A stretch of DNA of 43,583 nt from Gracilinema caldarium (lineage in GTDB: Bacteria > Spirochaetota > Spirochaetia > Treponematales > Breznakiellaceae): contig NZ_JAJUHW010000023.1 in the NCBI RefSeq assembly GCF_029265695.1, forward strand, positions 1-43,583. The letters are read 5' to 3'. How positions within the stretch are numbered: the first letter of the stretch is position 1; every line of letters starts with the position of its first letter. Position numbers and translations under genes: made by a program. The notes under the pieces are model-generated. The model ran no database searches. It was not told the DNA's origin and saw only the letters and a list, made by a program, of their open reading frames with translations. This document shows positions 22,585 to 29,657 of the stretch, piece after piece.

Positions 22585-24909
22585 TTATTGTCCCCGCAGC
22601 AGTTCCCGGGGTTTGGAACCCTGAGCGGGTCCCACGATGCCCCGTTCTTCCATAAGCTCTACTATACGGGCCGCCCGATTGTAGCCAATCTTGAGCCGCC
22701 GTTGAATGTAGCTGGCGCTGGCTTTTCCCTGCTGGTATACGATTTCCAGAGCCTTTTCGTATAGAGGATCATCTCCTTCGTCAAAGAGGGACGGCTCTGC
22801 TTCTTCCTCTTCTTCATCGTAGAAAATTTCGTCGTCCAAATAGTCCGGCTCGCCTAAGCCTTTGACATATTCTACAACCTTTTCTACCTCTTCTTCGGAC
22901 ACAAAGGCTCCCTGCATACGGACCGGGAAGGGGTCTACTGCGCCGGCATAAAGCATGTCTCCCTTGCCAAGCAGTTTTTCAGCCCCCACCATATCGATAA
23001 TGATGCGGCTGTCCATTTTGCTGGCCACCATAAAGGCAATACGGCTTGGAATATTAGCCTTAATAAGACCTGTAATGACATCGATGGATGGCCGCTGGGT
23101 GGCCAGCACGAGATGAATGCCCACGGCACGGCTCATGGCTGCAAGCCGAGCCACCGTGGACTCAAGCTCCTTGCCGGTGGTAGCCATGAGGTCCGCAAAC
23201 TCGTCGATGACCACAACAATATAAGGAAGCCGCTCGGTAGCTATATTTCGTTCTTTAATGCGTTTGTTATAGCTGCGAATGTCCCTGACCCCCATGGAAT
23301 CCAGCAGGGCATAGCGGCGTTCCATTTCATAGATACAGTACTGCAGGGCCTGGAATGCCCGCTTCGGTTCGGTAATGACCGGTGTCAGCAAATGGGGGAT
23401 ATCGTTATACAGTTTGAGCTCTACGATTTTGGGGTCAATCAGCATTAGCCGGACTTCGGCAGGGGAACGCTGGTACAGGATAGAAAGGATCATTGAGTTT
23501 ACGCAGACCGATTTTCCCGAACCGGTAGCTCCCGCAATTAAGAGATGCGGAGTTTGTACAAGATCAATGGTTTGGGCTTCTCCGGTAATGTCCTTACCCA
23601 GGATAACCGGTATCTCCATTTTTTTGCCTTCCCGGTGGAGTTCCCCTTCTATCATTTCCCGGAAAGAGACTATGTTCCGCTTGTGGTTCGGCACCTCAAT
23701 GCCGACCGCGTGTTTTCCCGGTATGGGGGCCACAATACGGACCGAGCTTGCCGCAAGCCGCAGGGCGATGTTGTCCTGCAGGTTTACAATTTTGGATAGC
23801 TTTACCCCCGGTGCGGGAAGTATTTCAAACATGGTAATAACCGGCCCCTTACGGATACCGGTCACTTCTGCCTGAATGTTAAATTCTTTCAGGGTCTCCT
23901 TAAGGATAAGCGCCGCGTCCCGGGTTGCCTGGTCAATAATCCAGTATTGACCGTCCGGGTAAGCTGTTAAAAGGCCTTCGACCGGTACATGGTAATTGCT
24001 TATGGAAAAGGCTTTGCGGGCCGTTGACACGGGTTTCTCTTTTGCAAGCTCAGCGGAAACCTCTGCCCGTTCCGCCGCTTTTTCCCGGGCAATCTTTTCT
24101 GCCAGGGCTTCTGCTTCAGTCAGTGCCTGTTCAAGATCCTGGTCTGTTTCCCCGACTGTTTGCTGTTCATGCTCTGACGAGTCGGCCTGTAAGTCCTCCT
24201 TGAAATCAACCTTTTGGTCTTTGCTGTGCAATTCTTTTTCGTGTAATTCCTCGAAAATTTTTGCGCTGGCAAGGGGTTTTACCTCGGGGAGTTCAAAAAT
24301 GACTGGATCCACTGGTTCTGTAGCAGCCTCGAGATCTTCAAGAAGAGGATATATTTCTTTATCTCTTTTGTGAGTAAGGGGTTGCTCAATCAGCAGCAAT
24401 GGAGCAGTGGTAGATTTTTTTTCACGTGTTTTTACTTCCACCGTCTGCTTGTATTTTGGAACCGATTTGGCAGAACGCTGGGCAATCGTTTTTGTAATTA
24501 AAAGAATAAGGAATATCTCGGCGAGCAGGACTAAAAGAAGCAAAAGACCGATACCGAGTGTTCCCAGCAGCCCTAAGAGGGGATACAACGAAAGCAGATC
24601 CTCATAATGATGGAAGACATACAAACCCAGCGTAAGAGTAAAGAAGGGTACTATGCTTGCGGTGAGGGCAAATATTCTATCGGGGCGGTAATAGGTATCA
24701 GATAAGATGAGGGCTGCTACAAAAAGATACACAGGTAGCCAATAGGCAAGATACCCATAGGCATCGAGGCAAAGTTGTCCTAGTTGGGCGAATAAAAAGG
24801 GTGCTGAGAAAAGGGCCCCGGTTATCGCGAGGGCAAGCAGAATCCCCGCGGTCCCAAAAATAACCGAAAGCGTAAGGGCTGTTTTGCTTGGATGTATAGG
24901 CTGTGCCAC
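22585..24909 (-). CDS. ftsK: FtsK/SpoIIIE DNA translocase
   Basis: 774 residues. Four or five membrane helices fill residues 15-145; a charged linker (about 150-300, rich in Glu and Lys) follows. The motor has Walker A in LIAGATGSGKSV (about 460), Walker B in VVVIDEFADL (about 570) and the ATQRPSIDVITG block. The last 65 residues are the winged-helix gamma domain (ASYIQRRLKIGYNRAARIVELMEERG) that reads polar KOPS/SRS DNA signals. It pumps chromosome ends to daughter cells at the septum. It starts three bases after the lytic transglycosylase stop, linking chromosome segregation and cell wall genes. Confidence 0.95.
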   Translation of the reverse strand: MAQPIHPSKTALTLSVIFGTAGILLALAITGALFSAPFLFAQLGQLCLDAYGYLAYWLPVYLFVAALILSDTYYRPDRIFALTASIVPFFTLTLGLYVFHHYEDLLSLYPLLGLLGTLGIGLLLLLVLLAEIFLILLITKTIAQRSAKSVPKYKQTVEVKTREKKSTTAPLLLIEQPLTHKRDKEIYPLLEDLEAATEPVDPVIFELPEVKPLASAKIFEELHEKELHSKDQKVDFKEDLQADSSEHEQQTVGETDQDLEQALTEAEALAEKIAREKAAERAEVSAELAKEKPVSTARKAFSISNYHVPVEGLLTAYPDGQYWIIDQATRDAALILKETLKEFNIQAEVTGIRKGPVITMFEILPAPGVKLSKIVNLQDNIALRLAASSVRIVAPIPGKHAVGIEVPNHKRNIVSFREMIEGELHREGKKMEIPVILGKDITGEAQTIDLVQTPHLLIAGATGSGKSVCVNSMILSILYQRSPAEVRLMLIDPKIVELKLYNDIPHLLTPVITEPKRAFQALQYCIYEMERRYALLDSMGVRDIRSYNKRIKERNIATERLPYIVVVIDEFADLMATTGKELESTVARLAAMSRAVGIHLVLATQRPSIDVITGLIKANIPSRIAFMVASKMDSRIIIDMVGAEKLLGKGDMLYAGAVDPFPVRMQGAFVSEEEVEKVVEYVKGLGEPDYLDDEIFYDEEEEEAEPSLFDEGDDPLYEKALEIVYQQGKASASYIQRRLKIGYNRAARIVELMEERGIVGPAQGSKPRELLRGQ

Positions 24910-24912
24910 GGT

Positions 24913-27282
24913 TTATCGAGCCTCCAGGGGATGTTGTTGTACAGGGAATATATCGGCAAAAACAGCTTCCATCGACATATTAAAATAAAGATATCCGTAT
25001 ACGGCTGCTGCCCCTAAAACTTTTCTGCTGTATTCTCTTGTTTCGGTAATCGGTATGGTTTCCAAAAAGAGGTCTTCTACCAGTTTACTCTGACTGTTTT
25101 TCCAATTTCTAACCCTTGTCATGCCGCCATTGTAAGACGCAAGGGCAAGCAGGGGGCTCCCGGTTCTTTCGATGAGATATGCAAGGTACCATGCACCGAT
25201 ATACAGGTTTGTTTCAGGGTTTTCCAGGTCTTTAGCATCCGTAATTGCAAAATCAGGTCCCCCAGCTCGTTTTATACGCCATGCAGCATCTTTGGCTGTA
25301 GCCAGCATGAGTTGAGTTAGACCCTTTGCACCTGCATGAGACGTAACGTCCGGTACAAAGGCGCTTTCACTCCGAACGAGACCATAAAAGATTTCAAGGG
25401 GAATGCGATGCTGCTTTGCGATAGGTTCCATAAGATCCCGGAATGGCAGGGGATAGAGCAGCTCAAAATCGGCTCTTTGTAAGGTATAGTCTTTTCGATT
25501 CAGTAAGGCCCGGTATATTAACTGTATCTGCTCCCCCCATCTGCCAGAGGAACCAAATAATGCGGCTAACCATCGTATTTCTTCAGGCTTGAGCTGTTCT
25601 CTATATTCCAATATGTAGGGCAGGGCTATATCAGCGCAGCCCCATGTGAAATAGCCGGCAAGATAGGCCATTAATGACTTTTCATCACCTGATGTTGATA
25701 TTTTGTTCTTTTCATCACTTTCATCCGTTTTTCCTGGGATCACTTGGAGTTTTGTTCCCAAAAAAGCAGCTGCTAAACTTCGGTAATAATAGGATGCCTT
25801 GTCTGTATCAAATGCAATCGTATATAAGCGTTCGGCGATCGCAGCGGGCTTACTTTCACTCGAAAATCCTAGGAATTCAAGTTCTTCACTGGGTGAGAGA
25901 TAAGATTCGGTAAATGCCCGGGCAAGGATATAAGCATAGCGTGCCTTAGTTGGACTGTCTGCCTTTTGGTAAATGATCTTAAATACCCGCAATAATTCTT
26001 GCCATTTATGATTTGTTGTATAGGAAGTGCAAATTTTATCGAGCAAATCATCAAAATATGAGGGATCAAACCAAATGGGAATAAGGCTTTCAAGTGTGGC
26101 AGCAAAATCTTTTTCTTCCGTTTCCAGACTTGTGTCCAAAATGTACCAAATACAGGCATCCCGCTGTTGCGGATCCGGTGCCAAGGGCAGGGCTTTGTAA
26201 AAATAATTGAGCGCATCCGATGGTGCCTTAATCTGCCGTGCCATACGGGCGGCATAAAAAAACAGCTTAAACCGAATTTCGTTTTTATCGCCGCTTGTTA
26301 TCAATGCCTTAGTGTTTTGACCAGATACAATGGTAGCATCCCAATCAATAAAAAGACGGATTCCTTCTTTTGCGGCCCCGCTGTATTGATATGCCTTTCC
26401 AAGATCGCTTAAGAGCTCTAGATAGGCTTCAAAAAGATAGCGATTTCTGCTTAATGCCTGTTTTAAGTAATACAGTGCGTCGCCGTATGATCGATCCGCT
26501 ATGTATAGCCTTCCTCTAATTGCATCCACCACCGTTTGGGGTAAATAGATATGTGGTGCCTGCTGAATTTTCGCAAATAAGTCCCGTTGGATATCGGAGA
26601 TGGATCCAGTAAAAAAGAAATTTTGAATCTCCGTGAGTATATTTTTGTTCTCGGGTTCAAGGGCAAGTCGGGAAAAAAGGACGAGCCCCCGTTCGCGAAG
26701 ATCCATGGATACGGCGGTATAGGTCTTCTGAAGATTTACAATTTCCTTATATTGCTCACCAGCGAAATATGTTTCCGTAAGCAGCGACCGATACCAGTTC
26801 TGTTCCCTATACTGGGCTTGTTTTCCCAATTTTTTCATGAGATCCAGGGCTGTTTCGGTCTGCTTTGTTTCAATGAGCAAAGGAATAAGCGTTTTGTACC
26901 TTGTTTGTTCTGCCCAGAGGGGGAGACTTTCGGTTCCAGTGCTCAATGCCGCTATGGCCCTCTCTTTGTCTCCTAGCTTAAATAGTTTCAGGCCCGCATA
27001 AAAAGGAGCTTCAGGTCCTAATGCTGCGAGTTCTTTGAGACTGCTGGGGTCTGCGGCTCTAATGATATCGAATGATCCTTGCTGCAGTTGAGCCAGGACT
27101 TCCTGCTTTTGCAGCCCCAAAACAGTTTCAGCCTTACAGGCAGTAAGGCTGAAAAAGAGGAAAAAACTAAGAAATAAAGACAGTCCTCTGAAACGATAGA
27201 GCGTTTTACGGTTTTGGTGGAATCCTGATAGTAGTACCAGAAATGATAAGATCAGGATTGCGAATTTTATTAAAACGGGCAA
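24913..27282 (-). CDS. Soluble lytic transglycosylase (Slt-type lipoprotein)
   Basis: Up to 789 residues. The C-terminal SLT domain has the catalytic Glu639 in VRSESAF, then GAKGLTQLMLATAKD, LYIGAWYLAYL and LALASYNGG. The middle 550 residues are helical TPR-like repeats, as in the Slt70 superhelix. It would cut glycan strands to 1,6-anhydromuramyl products in the periplasm. A lipobox-like FFSLTAC (about residue 49) suggests lipid anchoring. The start is uncertain: the only in-frame candidate is TTG at 27282, without a ribosome site and inside the upstream gene; the signal peptide proper seems to start near KTLYRFRG, where no good start codon exists. Overlap with the LysM gene suggests coupled translation. 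Confidence 0.85.
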   Translation of the reverse strand: MPVLIKFAILILSFLVLLSGFHQNRKTLYRFRGLSLFLSFFLFFSLTACKAETVLGLQKQEVLAQLQQGSFDIIRAADPSSLKELAALGPEAPFYAGLKLFKLGDKERAIAALSTGTESLPLWAEQTRYKTLIPLLIETKQTETALDLMKKLGKQAQYREQNWYRSLLTETYFAGEQYKEIVNLQKTYTAVSMDLRERGLVLFSRLALEPENKNILTEIQNFFFTGSISDIQRDLFAKIQQAPHIYLPQTVVDAIRGRLYIADRSYGDALYYLKQALSRNRYLFEAYLELLSDLGKAYQYSGAAKEGIRLFIDWDATIVSGQNTKALITSGDKNEIRFKLFFYAARMARQIKAPSDALNYFYKALPLAPDPQQRDACIWYILDTSLETEEKDFAATLESLIPIWFDPSYFDDLLDKICTSYTTNHKWQELLRVFKIIYQKADSPTKARYAYILARAFTESYLSPSEELEFLGFSSESKPAAIAERLYTIAFDTDKASYYYRSLAAAFLGTKLQVIPGKTDESDEKNKISTSGDEKSLMAYLAGYFTWGCADIALPYILEYREQLKPEEIRWLAALFGSSGRWGEQIQLIYRALLNRKDYTLQRADFELLYPLPFRDLMEPIAKQHRIPLEIFYGLVRSESAFVPDVTSHAGAKGLTQLMLATAKDAAWRIKRAGGPDFAITDAKDLENPETNLYIGAWYLAYLIERTGSPLLALASYNGGMTRVRNWKNSQSKLVEDLFLETIPITETREYSRKVLGAAAVYGYLYFNMSMEAVFADIFPVQQHPLEAR

Positions 27283-28162
27283 TGCGCGGATAAAGCCAAG
27301 GATTACGATAAAATGCCTCCGATATGTCCCATAGGGTGTCTCCCCAGCGAATCTTGTACGGCGCCCCTTCTTTCGGAATAGTCAGAGGAACCTTATAGGA
27401 GGCCACCGGTGCTGGGGGTCTTTTCCGGGCAGGTAACGGTTCTGCCGCAGGTTTGGACGGTGATACCTCAACAACCACCGCTGGTTTTGGCTCCTCTGCA
27501 GCCGCTGGGGCTGCCTGCTCCTGGACTTTGGCCGGTTCAGGTGCGGGTTTTTGCTCTGGTTCTGGTGCAGCCGTGGCTGCAGGAGCAGTAGTACTCACCG
27601 GCTTTGCCTTTTGATCATTCCGGCCAACAAACACAAACAGATATACCAGAATGGCCACGATGATGACAATGCCCAACCCTATCAGGATTGGAATTATGGG
27701 AAATGCCTTTTTATTTTCTTCCCGTTCTCTAATAGCCGAGGCTCGTTCATAAAGACCCGCTGGAGGGGGCTCTTCGTGGGCTTCGAGTTCAAAATCCGGC
27801 AGTTCGTAGGTATCCGCCTGATCAAGGGCCTTAAGAGAAACGGTCAGTTGATGCCGTTCTGTCTCATTCGGCGCATCCAGATCTACCGCTTCGGCCACCA
27901 ATTCTTCCGAATCCTTAGAAGTAATAATCATTTCGATGGAAGGCTCCCCCTTAGGTTTGGGGGCAATGTGTTCAATTACGAGACTTCCAATATAATCCGC
28001 ATCGGACATGCTTCTGGATTCGCTTTTATAAAGATCAATTTGAACGCTTTCCTGCCCATCATGGACGGTGGTTAATATAAGTCTTTTCTTTACCGAGGAA
28101 CCCTCTTCCAGAATAGGGTAAAATTCCCCGTTTGCGATCTTAATTCCGATGCTCGCCGCCAT
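27206..28162 (-). CDS. Hsp70 substrate-binding-domain-like, membrane helix and LysM protein
   Basis: 318 residues from the ATG at 28162, with AAGGAG eight bases upstream; a GTG three codons earlier is overlapped by that site. Residues 1-110 align along their length with the beta-sandwich peptide-binding domain of DnaK: SIGIKIANGEFYPILEEG, LTTVHDGQESVQIDLY, IGSLVIEHIAPKPKGEPSIE. No ATPase domain is present. A membrane helix follows (PIIPILIGLGIVIIVAILVY, about 165-190), then a Pro/Ala/Glu-rich spacer and a C-terminal LysM (PYKIRWGDTLWDISEAFYRN ... TTIRIPP). Expected topology: SBD in the cytoplasm, LysM on peptidoglycan. It heads the operon with the transglycosylase and ftsK. Function unknown; a wall-linked scaffold is a guess. 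Confidence 0.82.
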   Translation of the reverse strand: MAASIGIKIANGEFYPILEEGSSVKKRLILTTVHDGQESVQIDLYKSESRSMSDADYIGSLVIEHIAPKPKGEPSIEMIITSKDSEELVAEAVDLDAPNETERHQLTVSLKALDQADTYELPDFELEAHEEPPPAGLYERASAIREREENKKAFPIIPILIGLGIVIIVAILVYLFVFVGRNDQKAKPVSTTAPAATAAPEPEQKPAPEPAKVQEQAAPAAAEEPKPAVVVEVSPSKPAAEPLPARKRPPAPVASYKVPLTIPKEGAPYKIRWGDTLWDISEAFYRNPWLYPRIARFNKIRNPDLIISGTTIRIPPKP

Positions 28163-28242
28163 GAATTTCACTCCTTTTATACTTATATAAACAAACTTTA
28201 GACGCCCTATGGGGCTTTGTCAATGCTAAGAATAATATTCTC

Positions 28243-28277: not shown

Positions 28278-29657
28278 ATGGTAGGAATAGTTTCCATTCT
28301 CTTGGTAATCATACTGCTCGTTTCAGTCCTTTTAGTGTTGCTTGCCCTTTCAGGAAGAAAGCAAGAAAGCCCGGGAGATAAGAAACGAAAAAAAAGATCC
28401 AAAGGTCGGGATGCCCTCATTCGGGATGCTACCCGGCGCCTTGCCCAGAATCCAAAAGATCCTGAAGCCCTCCTGACCCTCGGAGAAATTTACTATCATG
28501 ATGAAGTGTGGGACAAGGCATACAAAACCTATGAAACCTTGGTAGAGCTTTGCGGGGCTAACCCGGAACTGAATGAGTTCGAAATAAACATGCGGTTTGG
28601 CCTCGCGGCCCTCAAGCTCAATATGACAGAAGAAGCTTACAAAGGGCTTGTTATTGCCCGCAGCCTTCAGCAAAACAACTTTGAGGTAAACTATAATCTG
28701 GGCGTACTTGAATTTCAGAAAAAAAATTATGAAAAGGCGGTGCAGCTTTTACAGCAAGCCCGAACCCAGGATCCTGAACACGCGCTTACACTCCGCTATC
28801 TGGGACATGGTTATTTTAAGCTCCATAAGTACCGGGAAAGCCTTGTGCTCCTTCGGAAAGCGGTGGACTTGGTTCCCGATGACAAGGAATCAATCTATGC
28901 CATGGGGGAGTGCTATTACGAACTTGGGCAAGCCGAACAGGCTATTAAAATATTCACCCATTTAAGGCCTGACCCGGTTCTCGGCCCCAACGCCTGTCTT
29001 TTTGCGGGAACCATCCATTTGAACCAGCATCAATTTGCAAAGGCCATTATGGACTTTGAAATCGGTCTTAAACATGAAAACATAAAAACCGAGATACAGC
29101 TCGAACTCAAATATCGACTTGCTATGGCCTACCTAAGGCAGCAGGAAATAGGCCGGGCGCTTAATTACCTTAACGACATACAGTCCCAAAATCCTAATTA
29201 CAAGGACGTCCCAGCCCTTATCGGCAAATATCAGGAACTTAATTCAAATAAAAATCTGCAGATTTATCTGATGTCCTCTACGGGAGATTTTGTAACCCTC
29301 TGCCGTAAGGTGGTTCTGAACTTTTTTCCCCGTGCCAAGGTTAAGATAACCAACATTGCGGTAAATAAAAATGAATGGGTCGATATTCTAACCGATGTGG
29401 ATACCCCAAAATGGGCAGACGTTGTCATGTTTCGTTTTATCCGCAGCACCGGTTCCGTCGGTGAGCTTATCGTGCGGGACTTTCATGCCCAGTTAAAGGA
29501 AGTCAAGGCGGGCAAGGGCTTGTGCATCACCGCCGGAACCTTTACCGACGAGGCTAAAAAATATGTCGAAGCCCGGCTCATCGATCTGTATGACAAGGAC
29601 AAGCTTGGCTCCCTCTTAAAAGGTGTCGATGCAAGCACCACCCAGCTCGAAATTTAA
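28278..29657 (+). CDS. TPR protein with C-terminal Mrr-like domain
   Basis: 459 residues. A membrane helix at 5-25 (VSILLVIILLVSVLLVLLAL) is followed by a very basic segment. Residues 50-310 are tetratricopeptide repeats (PEALLTLGEIYYHDEVWDKAY, FEVNYNLGVLEFQKKNYEKAV). Residues 325-450 resemble the Mrr/restriction-endonuclease fold: WVDILTDVDTPKWADVVMF, then FHAQLKEVKAGKGLCITAGT and ARLIDLYDKDKL. The QxK of active Mrr nucleases is replaced near FRFI, so it is probably catalytically dead and serves for binding. Anchored in the inner membrane with the rest cytoplasmic. Its stop codon abuts that of rmuC on the other strand with no bases between. Confidence 0.8.
   Translation: MVGIVSILLVIILLVSVLLVLLALSGRKQESPGDKKRKKRSKGRDALIRDATRRLAQNPKDPEALLTLGEIYYHDEVWDKAYKTYETLVELCGANPELNEFEINMRFGLAALKLNMTEEAYKGLVIARSLQQNNFEVNYNLGVLEFQKKNYEKAVQLLQQARTQDPEHALTLRYLGHGYFKLHKYRESLVLLRKAVDLVPDDKESIYAMGECYYELGQAEQAIKIFTHLRPDPVLGPNACLFAGTIHLNQHQFAKAIMDFEIGLKHENIKTEIQLELKYRLAMAYLRQQEIGRALNYLNDIQSQNPNYKDVPALIGKYQELNSNKNLQIYLMSSTGDFVTLCRKVVLNFFPRAKVKITNIAVNKNEWVDILTDVDTPKWADVVMFRFIRSTGSVGELIVRDFHAQLKEVKAGKGLCITAGTFTDEAKKYVEARLIDLYDKDKLGSLLKGVDASTTQLEI

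Follow-up and report, generated by a model that had tools for sequence, protein, structure and literature searches.

The stretch of DNA analyzed here (the window) comprises 43,583 nucleotides of a Gracilinema caldarium contig and carries a gene whose product joins the β-sandwich substrate-binding domain (SBD) of Hsp70, through one membrane helix, to a LysM domain. The protein has neither the Hsp70 ATPase nor the helical lid. It belongs to a family found across the spirochetes, its gene usually lies directly before that of a flagellar-assembly lytic transglycosylase, and it has been lost together with flagella in two lineages. Our tentative interpretation, held with somewhat less than even confidence, is that a flagellar-operon Hsp70 lost its motor and lid and had its client-binding half domesticated as a nucleotide-independent, membrane-spanning docking receptor that would position cytoplasmic machinery of the flagella or wall on peptidoglycan. 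The relevant features of the window are as follows.

27206..28162 (−), SBD-TM-LysM gene, 318 aa plus stop
27809..28159 (−), Hsp70-type substrate-binding β-sandwich, predicted cytoplasmic, residues 2–118 (Pfam, NCBIfam, PDB phmmer, AlphaFold with Foldseek/VIA)
27698..27808 (−), acidic cytoplasmic linker, residues 119–155
27632..27688 (−), single transmembrane helix, residues 159–177 (hydropathy 3.24; AlphaFold helix 156–184)
27365..27610 (−), Pro/Ala-rich periplasmic spacer, residues 185–266, mostly predicted disordered
27218..27358 (−), LysM domain, predicted periplasmic, residues 269–315 (PF01476 E 9.3e-8; pLDDT >90)
28195..28223 (−), promoter-like TTGACA-17-TAAAGT 5′ of the SBD-LysM gene, a consensus match only
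24913..27282 (−), BB0259-type flagellar-assembly lytic transglycosylase, the next gene, with overlapping start (NF047373 E 1.2e-144, above cut-off)
22585..24909 (−), FtsK DNA translocase, the gene after the transglycosylase (PF01580, PF17854, PF09397)
28278..29657 (+), divergent TPR protein with Mrr_cat-like C-terminus (PF14559, PF04471)

The SBD-LysM reading frame begins with ATG at 28162 and ends with a stop codon at 27206–27208, and an AAGGAG ribosome site lies 8 bases 5′ of the ATG. The promoter-like pair at 28223–28195 stands back to back with another such pair for the divergent TPR gene; the total of promoter-like matches across the region did not exceed the shuffled expectation. Among 80 related loci, L004 holds a relative with 98% identity. 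The C-terminus of the TPR protein (28278–29657, +) has a restriction-endonuclease fold of the Mrr_cat-like type (PF04471 E 3.2e-8).

The initial annotation had aligned residues 1–110 by eye to the DnaK SBD and proposed a profile search and a structure prediction as checks. Both were run, and the alignment proved correct. Pfam HSP70 positions 393–471 matched residues 4–80 (E 8.7e-7, 28.0 bits against a cut-off of 20.6), positions 389–483 of the NCBIfam DnaK model TIGR02350 matched residues 4–96 (E 3.5e-7), and the top phmmer match in the PDB was an Hsp70 peptide-binding domain (3h0x, E 2.1e-6). With a 40-sequence alignment as input, AlphaFold predicted eight strands for residues 1–120 (pLDDT 82, pTM 0.71). 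When this model was searched with Foldseek, Hsp70 peptide-binding domains ranked first (E 1.5e-7), and VIA-align superposed it on Hsp70 SBDs with a Z of 14.7 (114 residues, rmsd 2.8), the DnaK entries being aligned over positions 396–513. Fold, strand order, and aliphatic pocket are shared with the DnaK/Hsp70 SBD-β at ~24% identity. The concern that homologs might lack the N-terminal domain was not borne out, as HSP70 and LysM were both matched in 31/31 full-length relatives (alignment A4). In the reverse direction, the SBD-LysM family profile picked up canonical DnaK in nearly every genome (~1e-11 to 1e-18). The identity of residues 1–120 as an Hsp70 SBD is thus far beyond chance. An Hsp70-SBD-like fold was also seen in a ciliary doublet microtubule protein (PDB 6u42 chain 5F, Z 12.8).

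No match to a nucleotide-binding domain was found; the protein starts at SBD position 395–398 with nothing before residue 1, and the interdomain linker (VLLLD) is absent from the family. There is no helical lid either, because only short helices (residues 111–118 and 136–149) and disorder lie between the sandwich and the membrane helix. Both absences had been read from the letters at the outset, and the profile searches and a full-length AlphaFold model agree with them. The presence of just part of an Hsp70 might suggest a truncated dnaK pseudogene or an assembly artifact, an explanation with next to no probability: the gene is conserved, intact, and open in relatives, the same architecture recurs in 18 families by profile, and the gene has its own ribosome site, with an intact dnaK present separately in its genome.

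One membrane helix was found in all 44 members examined, none of which has a signal peptide. Lysine and arginine averaged 3.8 over the 15 positions preceding the helix and 1.9 over those following it, the N-terminal side being richer in 36 of the 44. The positive-inside excess and the missing signal peptide strongly suggest an N-in topology, with the SBD predicted inside and LysM outside, in support of the cytoplasmic N-terminal domain first proposed. The inner linker is acidic and of very variable length among members (20–348 aa), and the outer arm is Pro/Ala-rich. In the window's protein, residues 119–155 carry recurrent PDF(E/D)(L/F) and PPxGLYE motifs, a disordered stretch (120–129), and a juxtamembrane helix (136–149). 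The full-length AlphaFold model gave high confidence to the SBD and LysM and showed the linkers as disordered. A loose pattern found the PDF motif or a near form in only 26/44 members, and a role for it as an intramolecular pseudo-substrate in the cleft was unsupported (pLDDT ~47 in the full-length model). Matches to GltJ and the PD-T4-6 defense system cover the membrane helix and the Pro/Ala-rich stretch and were judged low-complexity.

The helix, Pro/Ala spacer, and C-terminal LysM described at the outset are all present in the full-length model, with one transmembrane segment and a LysM match of 32.3 bits against the curated cut-off of 20.9 (PF01476). LysM is nevertheless absent from 5/44 members examined, namely the distant L116, L121, L123, and L129 and the short-contig L093, and from the Borrelia-type ortholog, in which the SBD and membrane helix are followed by a short tail. 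The family core is therefore the SBD plus the membrane helix; LysM is frequent, not constant, and a wall tether is not an invariant part of the family. The tie to peptidoglycan originally proposed may thus apply to most members, in which LysM would grip the wall, but not to those that lack the domain. Other LysM membrane or periplasmic proteins (TsaP; the LysM-M23 protein in the Borrelia locus) share the module, but none of those found has an Hsp70 SBD, and the SBD-LysM protein differs from them in possessing a cytoplasmic domain and lacking a catalytic one.

After a first narrower scan, the family profile was run over 393 genomes of the phylum. Clear matches (E < ~2e-24) were obtained in 136 genomes from 18 families overall, with 128 of the genomes belonging to the class of the window, so the SBD-TM-LysM family is spirochete-wide, as the suggested collection of homologs was meant to reveal. 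The lower tiers of the scan held short-lid Hsp70 paralogs (~1e-12 to 5e-21) and DnaK (~1e-11 to 1e-18). The f6 genomes appear to be Borreliaceae and G056 appears T. pallidum-like. Borrelia-type genomes have a diverged ortholog (385 aa in L144) immediately preceding the transglycosylase gene, with profile matches of 1.9e-11 to 1.1e-5 in seven genomes and a profile-profile probability of 97.7 (E 1.3e-12). By gene order, the T. pallidum ortholog, adjoining gidA, would be approximately TP0042, a locus number that we infer. TP0048 was considered and rejected because a proteome paper lists it as a 15 kDa CcmA/bactofilin. A literature search, thin on subscription journals, found no paper discussing TP0042, no mention of BB0260, the locus expected for the Borrelia ortholog, in any relevant paper, and no paper on an Hsp70 SBD and LysM in one protein; the novelty of the SBD-TM-LysM family is provisional.

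Conservation was analyzed in an alignment of 84 family members, nine short-lid Hsp70 paralogs, and eight DnaKs, with the roles given to individual DnaK positions taken by us as established Hsp70 knowledge. Five cleft positions are aliphatic in essentially all 84 members (I401, I in 94%; F426, L in 93%; V436, V in 85%; I438, I in 92%; I472, I in 85%), and by inspection also in sequences of the T. pallidum and Borrelia types. The arch pair is altered (M404 to A, A429 to V). The ATPase-docking features have been lost: K/R414 is E in 83%, I418-P419 is deleted in 100%, and Q442 is R/K in 92%. Compared with the DnaK SBD-β, the family thus differs in these surface changes, in having no ATPase, linker, or lid, and in being membrane-tethered. 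Peptide binding by Hsp70 is normally coupled to the ATP cycle. DnaK fragments without a lid are known to retain peptide binding, with lower affinity and quicker exchange. Lidless binding is therefore plausible, and the SBD may bind peptide. With no ATPase and no lid there would be no cycling, and the domain would most likely serve as a permanent low-affinity docking site. We consider the chances evenly balanced that it is a permanent, ATPase-free docking domain positioning a cytoplasmic partner at flagellar or wall sites.

Alternatively, the SBD fold could be a mere protein–protein scaffold with partners on the sandwich surface and no peptide in the cleft. The changed arch residues and the absence of the lid and its latch partners would fit such a role, as would the structural setting of the Hsp70-SBD fold in the ciliary chain (6u42_5F), but the five cleft positions have all stayed aliphatic while other DnaK surfaces changed freely. 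Pocket conservation could partly be a by-product of fold stability, and we regard the scaffold as a possible, though rather unlikely, explanation. A conserved natural SBD that keeps its cleft without ATPase, linker, or lid offers a clean test of the cleft acting alone.

The order SBD-LysM, lytic transglycosylase, FtsK, with the SBD-LysM gene at the head, is present in the window as first described. Across the 80 close loci, the SBD-LysM gene is followed immediately by the transglycosylase in 67/71 testable loci, adjoins the divergent TPR gene in 53/66, and has FtsK downstream in 30/55; five loci in which the SBD-LysM gene itself had been missed by ORF calling were excluded from these counts. 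The slt/ftsK neighborhood, whose constancy among homologs the initial annotation proposed to check, is common but not universal. Distant families also show the arrangement TPR, SBD-LysM, transglycosylase, FtsK, in some cases beside gidA-gidB, and the TPR gene is a strongly conserved neighbor throughout the spirochetes. The window's transglycosylase is a member of the BB0259 system, scoring well above the NCBI cut-off, and the diverged Borrelia SBD ortholog occupies the same slot. In Borrelia, periplasmic flagella are reported not to assemble properly without BB0259 (PMC8517470). The SBD-LysM gene therefore lies within a flagellar cluster, beside the BB0259-type enzyme in those 67 loci and before fli/flh genes in two loci of genus g43.

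FliG is absent from 37 of ~215 class genomes, comprising 35/35 of family f12 (17 of which were counted as FliG-less by subtraction) and G363 and G372 of f4. The SBD protein is absent from all 37, which represent two lineages. G363 and G372 still contain a transglycosylase match, indicating that the SBD protein there tracks flagella rather than the transglycosylase. Four genomes of genus g43 have no flagellin and no BB0259-type enzyme above the cut-off, possess FlhA, and retain the SBD-LysM gene, which immediately precedes FtsK. In two of them, fli/flh export genes follow; after FtsK, L221 encodes a FliG middle domain, a FliK-like gene, FliM, FliO, FliP, FliQ, FliR, FlhB, and FlhA. The g43 genomes are small, and an export apparatus without a filament gene, adjoining SBD-LysM and FtsK, spans L221 9962–19904 and L223 1–10233.

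Fourteen flagellated class genomes gave no or merely weak SBD-protein matches, some of them at contig edges, and G381 (family f18) has no SBD-LysM gene at the position preceding the transglycosylase. The protein is thus not required for flagella as such, and an exclusive flagellar dependence must be tempered. The events are few (two co-losses, one retention), so the co-loss is support, not proof. A wall-growth or division factor acting with FtsK and the transglycosylase, linked to flagella only indirectly, would account for the FtsK neighbor, for LysM, and for the gene directly before FtsK in genomes without flagellin or transglycosylase. Within the class, however, genomes that have lost FliG have also lost the gene, including those that retain a transglycosylase (G363, G372), and the flagellin-less exceptions still carry the flagellar export apparatus; we consider this explanation unlikely.

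The docking interpretation leads to the following model, in which the partner, the flagellar site, and the mechanical link to the wall are all conjectural. In a single-pass inner-membrane protein, a flexible acidic stalk would carry a lidless, ATPase-free SBD on the cytoplasmic side, and in most lineages the Pro/Ala-rich periplasmic arm would end in a LysM gripping peptidoglycan. The docked ligand would be a short hydrophobic stretch within a partner from the cytoplasm, and the protein would keep this partner at the place in the envelope where the wall is opened by the BB0259-type transglycosylase to make room for the flagellar basal body. The protein is thus a candidate for how spirochetes position periplasmic flagella relative to the locally cut wall, and by synteny this candidate is probably present in the syphilis and Lyme lineages.

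In a tree of 65 SBDs, built on just 116 columns and with some long branches, the SBD-LysM family formed one clade (100/99) and DnaK another (100/99), with the short-lid Hsp70 paralogs between them. These paralogs (Borrelia BB0264 "dnaK-1" type, 490–610 aa) are the nearest SBD relatives by tree position and also by mean profile score, the ranges overlapping those of DnaK, and have TTV and GEP-type signatures in common with the family. They differ from it in that they retain the full ATPase and linker, are soluble, and have no membrane helix or LysM. It is strongly suggested that the SBD-LysM family descends from an Hsp70 paralog. The Borrelia-type paralog is encoded a few kilobases away from the transglycosylase, apparently where bb0264 is expected, the locus number being read from position; bb0264 is the last gene of the flgB motility superoperon (PMC11607428). 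In L157, the paralog is near genes for FapA, a sigma factor, and a DnaJ-HEAT protein, and in L154 it is followed by a DnaJ-HEAT gene; the other paralogs examined had unremarkable neighbors. Since the paralogs fall between the family and DnaK, and some lie near flagellar genes, a flagellum-associated Hsp70 minus its motor is a plausible ancestor.

Hsp70 SBD ancestry, the J-protein gene accompanying the Hsp70 paralog, and, in two g43 genomes, the position next to the FliOPQR-FlhBA cluster would also fit a holdase anchored in the membrane near the export apparatus, where it would catch unfolded segments of, for example, flagellar or secreted proteins. Such a holdase is improbable, as it would have neither an ATP cycle for release nor a lid, and a cytoplasmic role leaves LysM and the long periplasmic arm unexplained.

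Two further observations concern Hsp70-related genes. The short-lid Hsp70 paralog and DnaJ-HEAT gene at L157 8777–14329 and L154 1846–4268 could encode a chaperone pair dedicated to flagella. A second partial Hsp70 match, on the ATPase side, occurs in the genome that contains the window, in a 365 aa frame at L002 1501–1785 (G000:C11:65109-65393).
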